In this document: piece by piece, positions 5,476 to 12,933 of the stretch | Layout: every line of letters begins with the position of its first letter | How positions within the stretch are numbered: position 1 is the first letter of the stretch | Assembly (NCBI GenBank): GCA_023128635.1 | Contig: JAGMDP010000024.1 | Span: 1-14,885 of the forward strand | Direction: 5' to 3' | Source of the DNA: Candidatus Heimdallarchaeota archaeon | GTDB taxonomy: Archaea; Asgardarchaeota; Heimdallarchaeia; JABLTI01 | Length of the DNA: 14,885 bases | The notes under the pieces: generated by a model | The model's input: only the letters and a program-made list of their open reading frames with translations | Told to the model about the DNA's origin: nothing | The model's database searches: none | Translations under genes and position numbers: made by a program

Positions 5476-6177
5476 TTATACGTTCAGTGTAACAATAACC
5501 TGTTCAGCAGAAACTCCTATCACAACATCTCCGGGAGCCAATGGAGCAGAATAAATATAGGTGCCATTGTAAAGATCTGCTGTTGCAGCAGCATTGACGG
5601 TTACTTGCGAGTACCCTAGATAAGTAATTCCATAAACTGTTTCATAATAGAAATCAATAATCGCATTAGTTGCTGTATTTGTGTAAGAAAGGGTATAGTT
5701 GACATTATAGCTTAATTGGGTTACAATAGACATGTAGTTGCATTCCATATAAACATCAATGTCACCCCTGAAAGACATACGTCCATTAGTACTTACTAAT
5801 TCAACTGGAAGAACAGCGGGAATTAATTCATCTATCTCGAAAACAGCAATATATCCCTTACTCAGCATTTGTACTTCTGCAAAATCAAGCCAATCTTGTA
5901 AGATAAGCCCTGCAGTATTATTGCTATCAATTATAGTAGCAGGTTGAGAGAAATTCGCTAACATAGATATGACATAAGCGTTTGTTTCCGTTCTAAAATT
6001 ATCAAATGTTGATTGGAATTCTTCTATTTCCAGTCCTTCTGTGTATTGGGTTCGGTTTAATTCGTAAACAATATTGATAAAAGATAACATGTAGATTGTC
6101 ATAATTACAGCGCAAACCAGAAAGATTTGCCCTCTTTTGTTATCTTTCATGAATTGTTTGATTTTGTTGCGTTTCAT
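5476..6177 (-). CDS. pilin-like anchored protein, KRGQ N-terminus (third gene of operon)
   Basis: A predicted 233-residue exported protein. It has a basic N-terminus, then KRGQIF at 14-19, then one hydrophobic segment (about 17-36) and a Tyr/Thr/Asn-rich, probably beta-structured outer domain. This layout matches archaeal class III signal peptides, cut by an archaeal prepilin peptidase just before the hydrophobic helix; here the likely scissile region is at the GQ (16/17). I chose the ATG at 6177 over a TTG four codons earlier, because GGGTGA overlapping the stop codon of the preceding gene is then well placed. The gene follows its neighbour by four bases, indicating translational coupling. 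There is no recognisable domain after the anchor. The subunit type (major pilin, minor pilin or other surface protein) cannot be told. Confidence 0.7.
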   Translation of the reverse strand: MKRNKIKQFMKDNKRGQIFLVCAVIMTIYMLSFINIVYELNRTQYTEGLEIEEFQSTFDNFRTETNAYVISMLANFSQPATIIDSNNTAGLILQDWLDFAEVQMLSKGYIAVFEIDELIPAVLPVELVSTNGRMSFRGDIDVYMECNYMSIVTQLSYNVNYTLSYTNTATNAIIDFYYETVYGITYLGYSQVTVNAAATADLYNGTYIYSAPLAPGDVVIGVSAEQVIVTLNV

Positions 6178-6181
6178 TTTT

Positions 6182-6634
6182 TCACCCAACCAATCGCCAT
6201 AATTCTAAATGAATCATTCTGTACTGATTCAAGATTGTATCATATCCAAACAGAAAGTAATCAGTAGCTCCAACTGATGCATCAGCTGGCGGTATTCTTT
6301 CCCAGTATAAACTGAAAATATTCGTTCCAGCATCATCTTCAACCGATAATCGCCAGAAGACATTTTCAGGCAAAGCACTATCAATACTATCAGCAAGTTC
6401 TGTTGTCATTAAATTATAAACTAGAGGTTTCAAAGTTCCTGCACTATTCAAAGATTCGAGAGTGTTGTATCCTATTTCAGATAAATTATCTGGGTAGGTT
6501 TTATCTGTAGAAAATTCAACTTGATAAATAGCAATCATCAATAATATTAGCACAGATAATGCTATGAAGACTTCTATTAGGAATAGTTGTCCTTTCTTTT
6601 TGTGTCGAATTTTTAACTTAGATATTGGGGCCAT
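6182..6634 (-). CDS. pilin-like anchored protein, KKGQ N-terminus (second gene of operon)
   Basis: A predicted 150-residue protein with a basic N-terminus and KKKGQLFLIE at 12-21, the best class III signal-like motif of the three, with Glu near position +5 after the Gly as in type IV pilins. A strong hydrophobic helix (about 17-38) and a small outer domain follow. The chosen ATG at 6634 has GGCGGTG eight bases upstream. An earlier in-frame ATG at 6661 has only AAGGA directly touching it and is less likely. The start overlaps the end of the upstream gene by 22 bases, and the stop overlaps the ribosome-binding site of the next gene, so the three genes form one tightly coupled operon. Its size and motif make it the best candidate here for a true pilin or pseudopilin. 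No specific family was recognised. Confidence 0.72.
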   Translation of the reverse strand: MAPISKLKIRHKKKGQLFLIEVFIALSVLILLMIAIYQVEFSTDKTYPDNLSEIGYNTLESLNSAGTLKPLVYNLMTTELADSIDSALPENVFWRLSVEDDAGTNIFSLYWERIPPADASVGATDYFLFGYDTILNQYRMIHLELWRLVG

Positions 6635-7719
6635 ACGTATAACACCGCCTTGAATAAGCATTCCTTAACAACAACAATTTTTTCAATTTTCACGATTTGC
6701 TTATTATCTGGCATCAAATCAGCACCGTATACAGTGCTAAATTGCTCACTTAATTGTGAAGGATAAACAAACACCTTTCTCTGGAAACCAGAAATTGAAT
6801 CTGCAGTTACTAAAGAAACACAAGTACCATTTGTTGGGATTCTTAGATCAAAGGTTTCAGTAGTACTTGGACTACTGACTGTTGATGACTCATTACCAAA
6901 TTGCTCATTTCCTTCAGTATAAGGATATAAAACAATTGCACTTAAACTGACTAGCGAACCCACAAAAGATGTTTGAATATTTGCTAATCCATTATTTGAA
7001 ATGTTCTCTTGAACAATAAATTGCAATCCGAAATTAGTTTCGGTTCCTATAACAACCTCTTCGATATCAACTGCATAAATCCCAATCTGACTTTGCGCAA
7101 AAACAACCAACGTAAAATGTCCGTCTGGTAATACAGCAACTCCTGTTGGAAAACTCAAATCTAAAATACCAGAAGTATCTGTTTGGGATTTCTGGGTAAA
7201 AACAACTGTACTATTTGGTGCTACTACAAAACTCCAAACAATGCAATCTCCAATTGATGTTGTAATATTGATGCTACCAATTGGTTGAGACAGAGTCAAC
7301 GATGCGCTAACATCAAATAGTGACTCAAGACTTAATTGAAAACCAATTTTGTTTTCTAACGACATATTCTGTTTCAGATTTTCATAACTCAGACTAAACA
7401 ACGCATGCGGATTTATCCGAGAAATCTTGTTTGCATCTAAACTTGTGGTACTAATCTCTCGCAAGCCAAAGGAATTAAATTCTGTACTATATTTGTACTC
7501 CCAATCATTGGGATACCCTGTGCTTGAAAAAAATACCTCTGAGACTTGATTAGCAGAGGATTCAAAAGCTCTGTTATCTAAATTTTGATATTTTGGTTCT
7601 AGAAAATTCAGCGATAATACAATTACTTCTGCAAACATAATCATGAAAATAATCATTGCGAGAGCAAAATCGACTCCTTGTATCTGCCCTTTCTTATTTC
7701 GCCAAATATTTCTTTTCAT
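6613..7719 (-). CDS. pilin-like anchored surface protein, KKGQ N-terminus (first gene of operon)
   Basis: A predicted 368-residue protein starting with a basic stretch and KKGQIQ at 9-14, followed by a hydrophobic helix (about 16-40). A long Ser/Thr/Asn-rich outer region with several N-x-S/T sites follows. A GYPNDWEY segment shortly after the anchor resembles a G-x-P-x-(D/N)-W pattern I associate with archaeal pilin-like membrane proteins, though this is from memory. The C-terminal ~40 residues are hydrophobic and basic rather than serine-rich. The ATG has GGTGG seven bases upstream, and TTATATTAAA near 7740-7749 may be part of its promoter. It is the first gene of an operon transcribed away from the TadC-like gene, which suggests it belongs to the same surface filament or secretion apparatus. 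It is too large for a simple pilin and may be a tip or adhesin subunit (inference). Confidence 0.72.
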   Translation of the reverse strand: MKRNIWRNKKGQIQGVDFALAMIIFMIMFAEVIVLSLNFLEPKYQNLDNRAFESSANQVSEVFFSSTGYPNDWEYKYSTEFNSFGLREISTTSLDANKISRINPHALFSLSYENLKQNMSLENKIGFQLSLESLFDVSASLTLSQPIGSINITTSIGDCIVWSFVVAPNSTVVFTQKSQTDTSGILDLSFPTGVAVLPDGHFTLVVFAQSQIGIYAVDIEEVVIGTETNFGLQFIVQENISNNGLANIQTSFVGSLVSLSAIVLYPYTEGNEQFGNESSTVSSPSTTETFDLRIPTNGTCVSLVTADSISGFQRKVFVYPSQLSEQFSTVYGADLMPDNKQIVKIEKIVVVKECLFKAVLYVWPQYLS

Positions 7720-7954
7720 TGGGGATCCACCAATCTAACGTTTAATATAATCTCAAAAGTATCATGGTTTATTTTTGCTATAATTATGTGATTATTTAAG
7801 TTCTAAAACCTTTTCGCTTGTGGTATTTAGTCTAGTGAACAGAGCAATATGTATTTTTTCACTTCTTATAAAAAAATCAATAATAAACTCATTTAGTATC
7901 CACAAACATAGAATTTATTTAGCATAAACATGTAAATGTAAGCACTATTAGAAT

Positions 7955-7964
7955 CCCTATAGGG
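7955..7964. promoter_or_regulatory. perfect palindrome, possible operator
   Basis: CCCTATAGGG is an exact 10-bp inverted repeat, extended to ATCCCTATAGGG-GAT with one extra G. It stands out as a G/C-containing island in A+T-rich DNA and lies about 17 bases upstream of the TATA-like TTATTTATTT of the TadC-like gene. Such a site would suit a dimeric regulator. No matching regulator gene is adjacent. Confidence 0.35.
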
Positions 7965-8014
7965 GATAACATGGCAATAATTATTTATTTGTGAAATTTC
8001 ATATCACATTTAAG

Positions 8015-8020
8015 CGAGGA
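8015..8020 (+). promoter_or_regulatory. ribosome binding site deciding the TadC start
   Basis: CGAGGA lies about nine bases before the ATG at 8030. It favours that start over an in-frame GTG 13 codons upstream, which would place this purine-rich site inside the gene. Confidence 0.5.
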
Positions 8021-8029
8021 ATAAACAAT

Positions 8030-8917
8030 ATGCCTAAGATTCCACAAAAAACTCAAACAACGATTTGGGTTATCTCCATATCTATAGGAGTAGCAATGGG
8101 TGTTATTGCTGCTTTAATTTTTGCTAACGTATTTAATCTTCATGAAAATATAACCGCAAGTGACTTCATAGCAATTGGTATATTACTTACGATTGCTCCT
8201 CCATCTGTTGCATTTTTCATTGATAATAATTGGAGAACTGGTATTGATACTAACTTGCCAAATCTATTGAGAGACATTGCTGACGCTCAAAGAACAGGAT
8301 TATCCCTACCAAGAGCAGTTACGGAATCATCCAAAAGAAACTATGGTCCTTTAACACCTGAATTACAGAAAATGGCCGCGAAAATTTCTTGGGGAATTCC
8401 CTTTGATCAAGCGATGCGTTCGTTTACAGAAACTGCTGATACAGAATTAAATAACCGTGCTGCTATTCTAATTCTTGAAGCACAGAGATCAGGTGGAGTT
8501 ATAGAAGATATATTTGATTCAGCACAGAAACATGTTGAAGACATTCTAGCGCTGAGAAAAGAAAGATTAGGACAAATGAAACCGTACATATGGATTATTT
8601 ATGCAGCTTTCATCATTTTCTTGTTAGTAATTGTAGTGCTATTTAATACATTCTTTTACCCGATGGCGGAGATGTATACGGAATTCCAAGGGAATCAATT
8701 TGCAAATATGGGACTGAATCCCCAAGTCTTAGAATCGTACAAAATCTTGTTTCTCCACATGACTATAGTTGAAGGATTATTCAGTGGACTTGTAGCAGGA
8801 AAAATGGGTGAAGGAAAAGCAAAATCAGGATTAAAACATTCCTCAATCATGGTTTTAATTGGTTGGATAACATACAAATTAACCATAGAACTCCAGCTGA
8901 TAGAGATAAACATGTGA
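8030..8917 (+). CDS. TadC/FlaJ-like pilus assembly platform protein (T2SS F domain)
   Basis: A predicted polytopic membrane protein of 295 residues. Two N-terminal membrane segments (10-33 and 45-63) precede a cytoplasmic T2SS-F domain (about 70-185) reading NLLRDIADAQRTGLSL...GIPFDQAM...ILILEAQRSGG. Three further membrane segments follow (about 186-208, 238-258 and 270-290). The C-terminal run of SGLVAGKMGEG then SGLKHSSIM is characteristic of archaeal TadC/FlaJ platform proteins, which sit in the membrane and couple a cytoplasmic ATPase to pilus or archaellum assembly. At 295 residues it has one F domain, as in TadB/TadC. Full archaellar FlaJ is about twice as long, so this is not the archaellum platform. 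A coiled-coil gene follows after seven bases, and pilin-like genes diverge upstream. No secretion ATPase or second F-domain gene lies in view. Confidence 0.88.
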   Translation: MPKIPQKTQTTIWVISISIGVAMGVIAALIFANVFNLHENITASDFIAIGILLTIAPPSVAFFIDNNWRTGIDTNLPNLLRDIADAQRTGLSLPRAVTESSKRNYGPLTPELQKMAAKISWGIPFDQAMRSFTETADTELNNRAAILILEAQRSGGVIEDIFDSAQKHVEDILALRKERLGQMKPYIWIIYAAFIIFLLVIVVLFNTFFYPMAEMYTEFQGNQFANMGLNPQVLESYKILFLHMTIVEGLFSGLVAGKMGEGKAKSGLKHSSIMVLIGWITYKLTIELQLIEINM

Positions 8918-9418: not shown

Positions 9419-9468
9419 AATGAGGGAACTCTGTTTTTTCTTATTGAACTCAGGAACGATGATTGGAA

Positions 9469-9744
9469 ATGAAAAAAACTACACTCAGAACTGAAAAGGG
9501 GTTAATTGAAGTGGAACTAAGTATAGAAAATAATCAAATGACCAAACTAAAAATCACAGGTGACTTTTTCATCTATCCTGAGGAAGCATTAGAAATTATT
9601 GAACAAGAGTTATTGGGTATTACGATAGATAAGGAACAACTCAAAAACAAAATTGAAGGAATCTATAAGGAACAACAAATATCAACACCCGGAATTACAA
9701 TTAATGATTGGGTAACAGTAATTTTGAAAGCCAAAAATCTTTAA
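9469..9744 (+). CDS. lplB: LplB-like: stand-alone lipoate-protein ligase C-terminal domain
   Basis: A 91-residue protein resembling the C-terminal accessory domain of lipoate-protein ligase A. The pattern GLIEVELSIENNQMTKLKITGDFFIYPEEAL is typical: a strand pair, then the ITGDFF-(I/L)-x-P motif, then helices around ELLGITIDKEQL and a late helix. In archaea such as Thermoplasma the ligase is split into a catalytic LplA and a separate small LplB, and both are needed to activate lipoate onto 2-oxoacid dehydrogenase or GcvH proteins. No LplA is adjacent, so the partner must be encoded elsewhere. I chose the ATG at 9469 over a TTG two codons earlier; the ribosome-binding site is weak for either. 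The next gene on the same strand starts 59 bases on. The family match is by eye but the motif is distinctive. Confidence 0.8.
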   Translation: MKKTTLRTEKGLIEVELSIENNQMTKLKITGDFFIYPEEALEIIEQELLGITIDKEQLKNKIEGIYKEQQISTPGITINDWVTVILKAKNL

Positions 9745-9803
9745 ACATATTTAAAAACGCTATCAAAAATTTATCAATAATTATCTTAGAAGAGTGGGCT
9801 AGT

Positions 9804-10076
9804 GTGAAAATAACTTTCGAGTTCAAAGGATCGATTTTTGGTCAAAAAGAGAAAATTGTCTTGACATTGAAAGATAATCTTTCAGTTTTAGCTGCTCTTA
9901 AAGAGTTAGCTTCACAAATACCATCACTTGAGACGTTACTCTTCAAAGAAGATTCATTACGTAATGATATCCTTGTATTTGTTGATAGAACAGATGTAAT
10001 AACTATGAAATTGCTTGCTGTGTCTTTAGAAGACGGACAACAAATCACTGTCTTACCACTTGCTCATGGCGGTTAA
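9804..10076 (+). CDS. ubiquitin-like beta-grasp protein, MoaD/ThiS/SAMP type, C-terminal Gly-Gly
   Basis: A 90-residue protein with the beta-grasp pattern of MoaD, ThiS, Urm1 and the archaeal SAMPs. An opening hairpin (VKITFEFKGSIF...EKIVLTL) precedes a helix (SVLAALKELASQIP), a strand ILVFVDRTDV, a short helical turn, and SLEDGQQITVLPLAHGG at the end. The DG(Q/D)-x-(I/V)-x-(V/L)-x-P-x-x-x-GG ending is the hallmark: the terminal Gly-Gly is adenylated by an E1-like enzyme for sulfur transfer or protein conjugation. I take the GTG at 9804 as start, because the beta-grasp fold begins there. An upstream in-frame TTG at 9708 would add 32 unrelated residues and overlap the LplB gene. The stop is 32 bases before the EF-2 paralog, implying co-transcription. 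Sulfur carrier and protein modifier roles cannot be told apart from sequence. Confidence 0.82.
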   Translation: MKITFEFKGSIFGQKEKIVLTLKDNLSVLAALKELASQIPSLETLLFKEDSLRNDILVFVDRTDVITMKLLAVSLEDGQQITVLPLAHGG

Positions 10077-10108: not shown

Positions 10109-12169
10109 ATGAGCTTGATAGAGAAAATTTCGAATTTAATGACAAATCAAAAAAAGATAAGAAATATTGCTCTAGTTGCTCACATAGATCATGGAAAAAC
10201 AACTCTGTCGGATTCTCTACTTGTTTCTGCAGGCATTTTAGCTCCATCTATAGCGGGAGAAGCACGTGCCTTAGATTTTTTGCCAGAGGAGCAAAGACGC
10301 GGTATAACTATGAAGACCGCGAATATTTCATTGATCGTCAAAAAAGAAGATGAGGAATTCTTAATTAATTTAATTGATAGTCCTGGTCATGTTGATTTTT
10401 CGGGTAAAGTTGCACGAGCATTACGAATTGTAGATGGAGCAATAGTAGTTATAGATGCTGTAGAACAAGTTATGGCGCAAACGGAGACAGTTATTAGACA
10501 ATGTGTAACTGAAGGCGTTAAGCCGATTCTCTTCATTAACAAAGTAGATCGTTTAATCAATGAATTAAAATTAACCCCAAACCAAATTTCAGAGAGAATT
10601 GAGATACTTTATAATAATTTTAATGCCTTGGTAAAGAAGTTTTCAAAAAATTCCTCTGTGCCAAAGTGGCGTAGCTCAACAAGAGACGGAAGTGTGGTAT
10701 TTGGTTCAGCTCTTCATCGCTGGGCAATTTCAATTCCAATTGCTAAAGAGACTGAAATAACATTTGATCAAATTGTTGAGTACTATTCAAAAAATGAAAT
10801 TGAAACTTTGCAACAATTATTACCAATAGAGAAACCCTTGATTGATATGATTATTAATCACCTCCCTGATCCGATAACTGCTCAGAAATATAGAATTCAG
10901 AATATTTGGAAAGGAGATTTAACTTCTAGCGTTGGAAAGGCGATGATTAATTGTCAAACAGAAGGAGAAGATATACCTTTAGTTTTTGGTTCAACAAAAA
11001 TTTTGATGGATAAACATGCGGGTCAATTAGTATTAGGACGTATTTTCTCCGGGATACTAATGGAAAAGACAAACGTTATACTCCTAAATACGAAAGAACC
11101 TAAGAAAATACAAAATATATATGTCTTTATGGGAGAGGATAAAAAACGATTAACTCAAGTTCCTGCTGGTAACACTGTAGCAATCTCAGGTCTAGGTGAA
11201 ATAAATCCAGGGGAAACACTCGTAAGTATAAATCAAAAAGAAATGTTGCCTTTTGAAGAAATAAAATATCTTGCTAGTCCCGTTGTTACCGTTGCAATAG
11301 AACCAGAAATGCTTCGTGACTTACCACAACTCAAGAAAGTTCTCAAGCGATTTGACTTGGAGGATCCAAATCTTCTCATAAGAATTGATGATCAGTCAGG
11401 TGAAATCCTCTTAATGGGATTGGGAGAATTACATCTTGAAACAGTAGTTAATGATGTTTCCTTATTGGTTAAATGCACCTCCTCATCACCTCTTGTCATT
11501 TTTGTTGAAAGAATTAGTAAACCAAGTGGAGAAATATCTCGAGATGAATTTGGCTCTAAAGTAAGATTACTCGTAGAATCTAATACAGAAGATAAAACCC
11601 CACCACCATCAGTTGGCGAGGAAATCGGGGATTACATTGAAGGCTTAAGCCAATATAAAAATGAAATTGTTATTAAGAAATCTATAATAAACAAATTTTC
11701 AAAAGAAGCGATTGAGAATATTTTAGTAGGAATAAAAAGTGCATTGATTTCAGGACCAATCTTTTCTAAACCAGTTGCTGGTGTTCGAATCATAATTAGA
11801 GATTTCGAAGCTACTGAGGGTGAGAAATTCGAGCACACTGTACCTTTACTAAGAAATTCTGTGTGGGACGCCTTACGCAAAGGAGAAATCGCTACCCAAG
11901 AACCAATCTATAAGATACAAATCACAACCCCTGCAATGTACCTAGGAAAAGTAACTTCGGTAATCAACAAAAGAAGAGGGGATATAGTTGATGTTAGGTC
12001 TGATCAAGATCTCATCATAATTTCAGGGAGTTTACCAGTCGCTGAATCTTTCAAAATAGATCAAGATTTACGATCTGATACTGAAGGAAGAGCATTTTGG
12101 CAAATGTCCTTTGAACGATACGAGATTATCTCAGAAACTCGCTTAGATGAATATAAACAAAAGCAGTAA
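10109..12169 (+). CDS. EF-2 family translational GTPase, paralog lacking the diphthamide loop
   Basis: A 686-residue GTPase of the archaeal/eukaryotic EF-2 family. The G domain is intact: AHIDHGKT P-loop (24-31), RGITM switch I (64-68), DSPGHVDF switch II (90-97), NKVD (144-147) and GSALH (199-203). Domain II follows (about 290-380), then domain III with MGLGELHLE (436-444), domain IV (about 465-605) and domain V ending LPVAESF...RSDTEGRAFW. Domain IV is abnormal. In canonical EF-2 a loop reading D-x-x-H-R-G-P-A-Q holds the histidine modified to diphthamide; here (residues 564-577) the loop is about three residues shorter and has no HRG. The conserved SPNKHN loop is also absent, and the protein is roughly 45 residues shorter than typical archaeal EF-2 (about 730). 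This fits the described EF-2 paralogs of diphthamide-lacking Asgard archaea. Whether it still translocates tRNA is doubtful. A ubiquitin-like gene lies 32 bases upstream. Confidence 0.95.
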   Translation: MSLIEKISNLMTNQKKIRNIALVAHIDHGKTTLSDSLLVSAGILAPSIAGEARALDFLPEEQRRGITMKTANISLIVKKEDEEFLINLIDSPGHVDFSGKVARALRIVDGAIVVIDAVEQVMAQTETVIRQCVTEGVKPILFINKVDRLINELKLTPNQISERIEILYNNFNALVKKFSKNSSVPKWRSSTRDGSVVFGSALHRWAISIPIAKETEITFDQIVEYYSKNEIETLQQLLPIEKPLIDMIINHLPDPITAQKYRIQNIWKGDLTSSVGKAMINCQTEGEDIPLVFGSTKILMDKHAGQLVLGRIFSGILMEKTNVILLNTKEPKKIQNIYVFMGEDKKRLTQVPAGNTVAISGLGEINPGETLVSINQKEMLPFEEIKYLASPVVTVAIEPEMLRDLPQLKKVLKRFDLEDPNLLIRIDDQSGEILLMGLGELHLETVVNDVSLLVKCTSSSPLVIFVERISKPSGEISRDEFGSKVRLLVESNTEDKTPPPSVGEEIGDYIEGLSQYKNEIVIKKSIINKFSKEAIENILVGIKSALISGPIFSKPVAGVRIIIRDFEATEGEKFEHTVPLLRNSVWDALRKGEIATQEPIYKIQITTPAMYLGKVTSVINKRRGDIVDVRSDQDLIIISGSLPVAESFKIDQDLRSDTEGRAFWQMSFERYEIISETRLDEYKQKQ

Positions 12170-12207: not shown

Positions 12208-12933
12208 TTGACTATCTTTTTAAACTTAAAAAAAAAGATATTAGATGACAAATATAAATTATTCTCAAGTATGGTGAAGAACAACGTGCGACGAATTAAA
12301 GACGATCTTGGTAGAACAGTAGATGCAGAAGACAACTTAGCGAAAATGATTATGATTGAGCAAGGGATTGACGCTGCTTATGAAATCGAAGAACCTGTTT
12401 CACGAAGTTATGCATTTTGTGATTGCATAATAGCTATTTCTGAATTTGCTAGGGAAACAAGTAACTTTGAAACGCTCGAAAGAACTCAACCATTACTTGA
12501 ACAAATAACAAATAAAGGTGCAACAGCAAGAGCTTTATGTTATCTAGCAGTAGTCCTCTCTTCACTAAATCATGAAGAAGAAGCTGAAAAAGCACTTCTT
12601 GATTCTATAAAATGCGCTTCAGAAATAAGAGATGACTTTGATCGAAGAGACGCTTTACTTGACATTGCTACTTCTACTGCTGACATGTCATTTTTATTGA
12701 ATAAACGTAGATTAGTTAATTTAGGCTTACAATTTCAGGATCAATTAACAAAAGGACAAAAAGCATATCTCTTTGGCTATCTCTCACAGGTTCTTCCATC
12801 CGAAGAAGGCACTCAATTAATGAGAGAAGCAATGAATATAGCAAGTCAAATAAAAGATCCAATTACAAGATCCAAAGTTTCATTAGAACTAGCAACTCTT
12901 CTAACAAGTAGTGCAAAACCACTTGAAGAATAA
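12208..12933 (+). CDS. helical-repeat (solenoid) protein downstream of the EF-2 paralog
   Basis: An all-helical soluble protein of up to 241 residues with degenerate repeats of the form I-x-(D/E)-x3-R-x3-(A/S/L)-x-(L/I)-A. They are visible at about 60-76 (IEEPVSRSYAF), 140-154 (IRDDFDRRDALLDIA) and 215-230 (IKDPITRSKVSLELA), with a looser unit at 100-116. Such units build TPR/HEAT-like alpha-solenoids that act as binding scaffolds. The start is uncertain. A TTG at 12208 gives 241 residues. An ATG at 12271 gives 220 and would suit a TATA-like TTTTTAAACT at about 12217-12226. It follows the EF-2 paralog by 38 bases (or 101 to the ATG), so co-transcription is possible. It converges on the PHP gene, 13 bases away. 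No specific function is recognised. Confidence 0.75.
   Translation: MTIFLNLKKKILDDKYKLFSSMVKNNVRRIKDDLGRTVDAEDNLAKMIMIEQGIDAAYEIEEPVSRSYAFCDCIIAISEFARETSNFETLERTQPLLEQITNKGATARALCYLAVVLSSLNHEEEAEKALLDSIKCASEIRDDFDRRDALLDIATSTADMSFLLNKRRLVNLGLQFQDQLTKGQKAYLFGYLSQVLPSEEGTQLMREAMNIASQIKDPITRSKVSLELATLLTSSAKPLEE

Follow-up and report, generated by a model that had tools for sequence, protein, structure and literature searches.

Diphthamide has, to our knowledge, long been thought universal in archaea and eukaryotes. Narrowe et al. 2018 are said to have described the loss of the diphthamide synthesis (dph) genes in Asgard archaea, together with a second EF-2 paralog that lacks the key residues. 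An excerpt of Eme et al. 2023 (PMC10307638) restates this situation of the dph-less Asgard EF-2 paralog, and an excerpt of Vosseberg 2023 states that the last Asgard ancestor had two orthologs of EF-2. Here we analyze an EF-2 gene at positions 10109 to 12169 of the forward strand of a 14,885 nucleotide stretch of DNA from a Candidatus Heimdallarchaeota archaeon (contig JAGMDP010000024.1 of assembly GCA_023128635.1); the whole stretch is called the window below, and the EF-2 gene the window gene. It is a further case of the paralog already described in Asgard archaea. EF-2s like that of the window are referred to as type A and the second EF-2 as type B. Taking its identity and its dph-less setting jointly, we are highly confident that the window gene is the type A paralog of a diphthamide-less Heimdallarchaeia lineage. 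The best overall explanation, to which we give a probability of roughly 60%, adds that in this lineage type B translocates and type A acts at a ribosomal step that is independent of the tip of domain IV.

Domain IV of the window EF-2

The main features of the window gene are as follows.

10109..12169, + strand: EF-2-type translational GTPase of type A (archaeal EF-2, aEF-2, paralog), 686 amino acids (aa); open frame from the ATG at 10109, Pfam and TIGR00490
10178..10204, + strand: G1 / P-loop, AHIDHGKTT, intact (alignment)
10376..10399, + strand: G3 / switch II, DSPGHVDF, intact, with the His of PGH present (alignment)
11498..11905, + strand: domain IV, 136 aa against 162 in canonical EF-2, or about 26 residues shorter (alignment, model fold)
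11543..11575, + strand: first tip loop of domain IV, which has lost the SPNKHNR motif and forms a tight hairpin in the model (alignment, model strands 475-479 and 482-490)
11798..11839, + strand: second tip loop, the diphthamide loop, without H-R-G and three residues short, RDFEATEGEKFEHT (alignment)

The 686 aa protein matches the GTP_EFTU, domain II, EFG_III and EFG_C families of Pfam, and it gave no Pfam match to EFG_IV (PF03764) at an E value of 0.001, although the structure model does show the fold of that domain. Against the archaeal EF-2 model TIGR00490 it scores 610.3 bits, below the curated cut-off of 738.45 bits. All of the GTPase motifs G1 to G5 are intact in the alignment, and identity to canonical EF-2 is 55% in the G domain and 19% in domain IV (19-20% to two canonical EF-2s); the domain boundaries on which these lengths and identities depend were set by us. 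The closest named records, whose proteins are 92-94% identical, are Heimdallarchaeota and Asgard metagenome-assembled genomes (JAHLVZ010000019, DAOVHJ010000070 and JABLTI010000147). The ratio of nonsynonymous to synonymous substitution rates (dN/dS) is 0.10-0.115 between the window gene and its three closest type A genes, and the gene is under purifying selection.

A first-pass annotation of this DNA had held that residues 564-577 lack H-R-G and form a loop about three residues too short between flanks that align well. Its numbering is correct, since counting from the ATG at 10109 these residues are encoded by codons 11798-11839 and read RDFEATEGEKFEHT, and comparison with the 26 canonical EF-2s in our alignment, all of which (26/26) carry HRG, bears out the missing motif, the three-residue gap and the alignable flanks. 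Our motif counts come from 115 aligned rows, one of them a duplicate (114 genes), among which type A has HRG in 0/46 and a His at the diphthamide column in 2/46, both of family f20. A 5-residue turn stands in place of the diphthamide loop in the structure model. The annotation understated the extent of the change, since the SPNKHNR loop is lost as well and domain IV is shortened as listed above.

Of nine genomes of the same genus, eight yielded the gene, each with the short HRG-less loop, and one, G002, yielded no match. Alignment A2 has 62 rows, of which 41, the window protein among them, share 58% identity or more with that protein; across these 41, residues E572, K573, T577, P579, R582 and N583 do not vary. 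Because the frame is open, the eight loops are alike and these residues are fixed, an error in sequencing is improbable; the open frame and the short loop of the 8/8 relatives also led us to set aside a frameshift or a misassembly.

Diphthamide genes and the second EF-2

The genomic setting of the window gene was read from the nearest genus, represented by nine genomes with a completeness of 64-92%, rather than from its own genome. In these, dph2, dph5 and dph6 were each found in 0/9, and both type A and type B are present in 7/9. The same searches recovered dph2 in 12, dph5 in 12 and dph6 in 13 of the 14 genomes of families f2 and f7, which belong to the same class and which we infer to be Hodarchaeales-like. 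The first-pass annotation had offered two alternatives, a genome of the dph-less set or one with the paralog beside a canonical EF-2; the dph-less setting and the presence of a second EF-2 are both upheld in these nearest genomes, but the second copy is not fully canonical, as it carries HTG. Its diphthamide loop, DPAHTG, has the His in 42/42 type B rows, H-T in 41/42 and HTG in 29/42, without the Arg of HRG.

The class comprises 58 genomes in our sample, and in the 44 that lie outside f2 and f7, type A was found in 37, type B in 38 and both in 32 (the EF-2 of G056, which is nearer type A, is counted accordingly). The 14 f2 and f7 genomes have neither and carry a canonical EF-2 instead. Searches for dph5 and dph6 covered these 58 genomes, and dph2 alone was also sought outside the class. 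It was found in 14 of 158 Asgard genomes, including members of families f2 (6/7), f11 (3/4), f12 (1/1) and f18 (3/4) and one contaminated f22 genome. Type B, called at 55% identity or more among the matches listed, is present in at least 122 of the 144 dph2-negative genomes (123 with a type B fragment in G018), which leaves 22 without a call, and, among the matches listed, in 0/14 dph2-positive genomes, one of which, G117, is 12% contaminated and gave no EF-2 match at all. Given this way of calling, short type B fragments such as that of G018 may be missed. A Fisher test of type B against dph2 gives 1e-10, a value that takes no account of relatedness; the lineages that independently bear dph2 may number three or four. 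In families f11, f12 and f18, which bear dph2, we found a single EF-2, with HRG, and an f18 EF-2 is 89% identical to that of Freyarchaeum. The excerpt of Eme et al. 2023 (PMC10307638) has only Hodarchaeales keeping dph with a single canonical EF-2; in view of these three families that statement, as it stands in the excerpt, seems too restrictive for the present set of genomes.

Our careful tree (LG+C20, tip loops excluded) was built from 51 of the 115 rows, which were chosen by us in a way that favoured slower type A rows. In it type B is one clade (100/100), type A is placed on one side with a support of only 85/63 and the canonical genes fall between them. In approximately unbiased (AU) tests, whose groups were named after a quick tree had been seen, type A and type B as sisters were rejected (p 0.0012), as was a clade of the window genus, f2/f7 and eukaryotic eEF2 (p 0.0044); a single clade of all Asgard rows with eEF2 gave p 0.024. 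The window gene is thus not nested among the single-copy canonical EF-2s of the class it belongs to; such nesting is what the first-pass annotation had named as evidence against its proposal. In the quick tree (112/115 rows) the type A rows are scattered close to the canonical genes, the forks are weak and long branches drew warnings. Type B joins the Euryarchaeota and Sulfolobus rows in the careful tree (100/96, 99/99), which may be long-branch attraction; for this reason, and because of the AU p of 0.024 for Asgard rows with eEF2, we do not trust the deep branching order.

Several individual genes of this family stand out. The type A match G178:C23:61242-63305 has an in-frame TAG, and its genome, 94% complete, has no type B among the matches listed. 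At L074:2563-5334 (G068, family f17) the type A P-loop in the alignment holds an intein-like insert after HGK that ends in HN before TT, and in the same locus type A and type B adjoin on opposite strands. A Ranarchaeia EF-2, P0013 (1236 aa), carries the Pfam intein domain PF14890. The canonical EF-2 of family f11 has a break in its reading frame within switch II, at the codons DTPGHV|DF, in the loci L087:5904-6262 and L088:5473-5831, with about 23 nucleotides between the parts, either a tiny intron or a frameshift. Lastly, dph5 gave a strong match (279 bits) at G021:C131:5399-6082, in an f4 genome that yielded no dph2.

Proposed roles of the two copies

Under our explanation type B would carry out tRNA-mRNA translocation without diphthamide, and type A would dock at the factor-binding site and hydrolyse GTP. 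The tip of EF-2 normally extends to the decoding site of the ribosome; that of type A would make no contact with the decoding-centre tRNA-mRNA helix, and type A would therefore most likely act where such contact is not required, for example in releasing aIF6, recycling subunits or activating the ribosome. According to an excerpt of PMC8024482, unmodified recombinant Sulfolobus aEF-2 is a ribosome-dependent GTPase that releases aIF6 with GTP hydrolysis, which makes aIF6 release plausible for type A. This division of labour, with type B as translocase and type A as a ribosome-bound GTPase, is tentative, its chances being somewhat less than even.

A number of observations weigh against this explanation. 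Serine replaces the Asp of switch II in 42/42 type B rows (DTPGHxSF), so that type B cannot simply be equated with the canonical enzyme; in its other tip loop only 34/42 rows retain the His of KHNR. Neither copy is shown to be universal, as outside f2 and f7 type A was not found in 7/44 and type B in 6/44 incomplete genomes. Weak partial dph6-family matches of 19.6-27.5 bits, 11 of them above the Pfam cut-off of 23.2, occur in 18/23 f4 genomes; we provisionally take them for other PP-loop proteins. Finally, type A is nearer to canonical EF-2 overall. Identities of the window protein to the canonical chain 5h7j are 51, 40, 43, 20 and 29% in domains G, II, III, IV and V, and those to the type B protein of G001 are 42, 25, 32, 15 and 31%; thus the window copy is closer to 5h7j in every domain but V.

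This nearness would also fit the strongest rival, that type A is a working diphthamide-free translocase whose shortened domain IV still moves tRNA and that type B is the specialised copy. Type A keeps the canonical G-domain motifs, including the switch II Asp in 45/46 rows (the other has a gap), where type B has Ser, and in the tree it falls on the same side as the canonical genes. The gene for rpS10 is also close to type A, at 0.5-2.1 kb in 6/6 f4 loci examined and at 150 bases in the one f13 locus, where type A is near an open reading frame (ORF) identified as EF1A-like from its motifs only as well; the remaining type A loci showed no rpS10. Its proximity is consistent with type A occupying the old EF-2 locus, and a contrast with type B would not be a fair one here, as the type B flanks examined were shorter. 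On the other side, both tip loops are gone in type A and kept in type B, type A domain IV goes unrecognised by Pfam, and type A mostly evolves faster: G001 is 68-77% identical to G004, G005, G007, G008 and G009 in type A and 82-88% in type B. The G004-G005 pair, where type A is no faster (95.1% vs 94.5% for type B, with a type A dN/dS of 0.24), goes against our explanation. On balance we regard type A as translocase as unlikely.

Less probable still, and frankly speculative, is that a single diphthamide EF-2 gave way, as a unit, to a complementary pair of GTPases, type A with the canonical engine and no tip and type B with the tip and an altered switch II. The same low standing belongs to the part of that joint reading in which the invariant His of the type B DPAHTG loop would be unmodified or differently modified. 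If it were true, type B would be of ancient descent and would not have arisen by recent duplication of type A, and the pair would be a natural, phylum-wide solution to translation without diphthamide.

Efl1 is not known to carry diphthamide, and the fold matches include EF-2-like chains of the spliceosome; that type A is in the strict sense an archaeal protein of the Efl1 or Snu114 type, sharing a clade with these eukaryotic paralogs, nevertheless seems to us very improbable. We would give even less credit to a diphthamide-like modification of H576, reached through a shifted alignment or by other enzymes. H576 is near the loop and is His in 36/41 close A2 rows, but it is Tyr in the other 5/41, aligns with the Gln of HRGPAQ five residues past the diphthamide position, is modelled within the following helix away from the loop tip and is not followed by R-G; in addition, the searches of the genus recovered no dph2, dph5 or dph6. 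H576 was set aside as the diphthamide His on its alignment, the Tyr and the helix, and the alignment that the first-pass annotation had called for places no His at that position in the window protein. Equally implausible is a decaying copy or assembly artefact, for which the fast evolution of domain IV and the in-frame stops of some type A genes elsewhere (e.g. G178) might speak, but against which stand the open frame, a dN/dS of about 0.1 for the closest pairs and upstream neighbours that are the same in 8/8 genus loci.

Gene neighbourhood and relation to known systems

The window gene is accompanied by the following neighbours.

9463..9744, + strand: lipoate-protein ligase small subunit-like (LplB); NF053749, 65.1 bits (cut-off 65); 8/8 genus loci
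9708..10076, + strand: SAMP1/Urm1-like ubiquitin-like protein with LPLAHGG at its C-terminus, the next gene upstream; NCBIfam NF041918, 3.1e-8, under cut-off; 8/8 genus loci
12208..12933, + strand: downstream ORF, 241 aa, without family match; kept in 7/8 genus loci

Gene order is kept upstream in 8/8 genus loci and downstream in 7/8 as far as contigs reach; the 241 aa ORF is not in the G007 locus, although the downstream DNA of that locus was covered. A functional link between the SAMP-like gene and EF-2 was set aside: the pair is present in 8/8 loci of the genus, but the SAMP/Urm1-like neighbour gave no match in the type A loci of other families. In family f10 a ThiF-family E1-like gene (PF00899, L079:7134-7883) abuts type A EF-2 end to end. 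Elsewhere in the window, three ORFs at 5476-8917 with a hydrophobic stretch near the N-terminus lie beside a T2SSF/ArlJ-like gene, which suggests a putative type IV pilus- or archaellum-like locus.

With dph mostly missing from a phylum and its EF-2 split into two GTPases, both the role of diphthamide and the identity of the translocating copy become testable. Excerpts of PMC5875740 and PMC12395588 present EF-2 as a contested marker in the debate on an Asgard origin of eukaryotes, so telling the Asgard copies apart matters for that tree.

Like the paralog of the kind attributed to Narrowe et al. 2018, the window EF-2 is without the diphthamide residues and sits beside another EF-2 in a lineage without detected dph; its loss of both tip loops and its domain IV, 26 aa shorter, may set it apart from that paralog. 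The type B motif count, the loss of two loops and the mutual exclusion of type B and dph2 are additions here, and may already be in Narrowe et al. 2018. With canonical archaeal EF-2 (TIGR00490; PDB 6u43, 5h7j and 8hl1) the window protein shares intact G1-G5 motifs, whereas it falls under the model's cut-off and is without the EFG_IV match, HRG and SPNKHNR. Type B EF-2s (e.g. G001:C81 and L102) occur in the same genomes and belong to the same superfamily as type A, but they keep KSPNGHNR and DPAHTG, have the switch II Ser and form a separate clade (100/100). The EF-2s of f2 and f7, of the same archaeal class, and eukaryotic eEF2 are homologous to the window gene; those of f2 and f7 differ from it in being single copy with HRG and dph genes, and the window genus lies outside their clade (AU p 0.0044).
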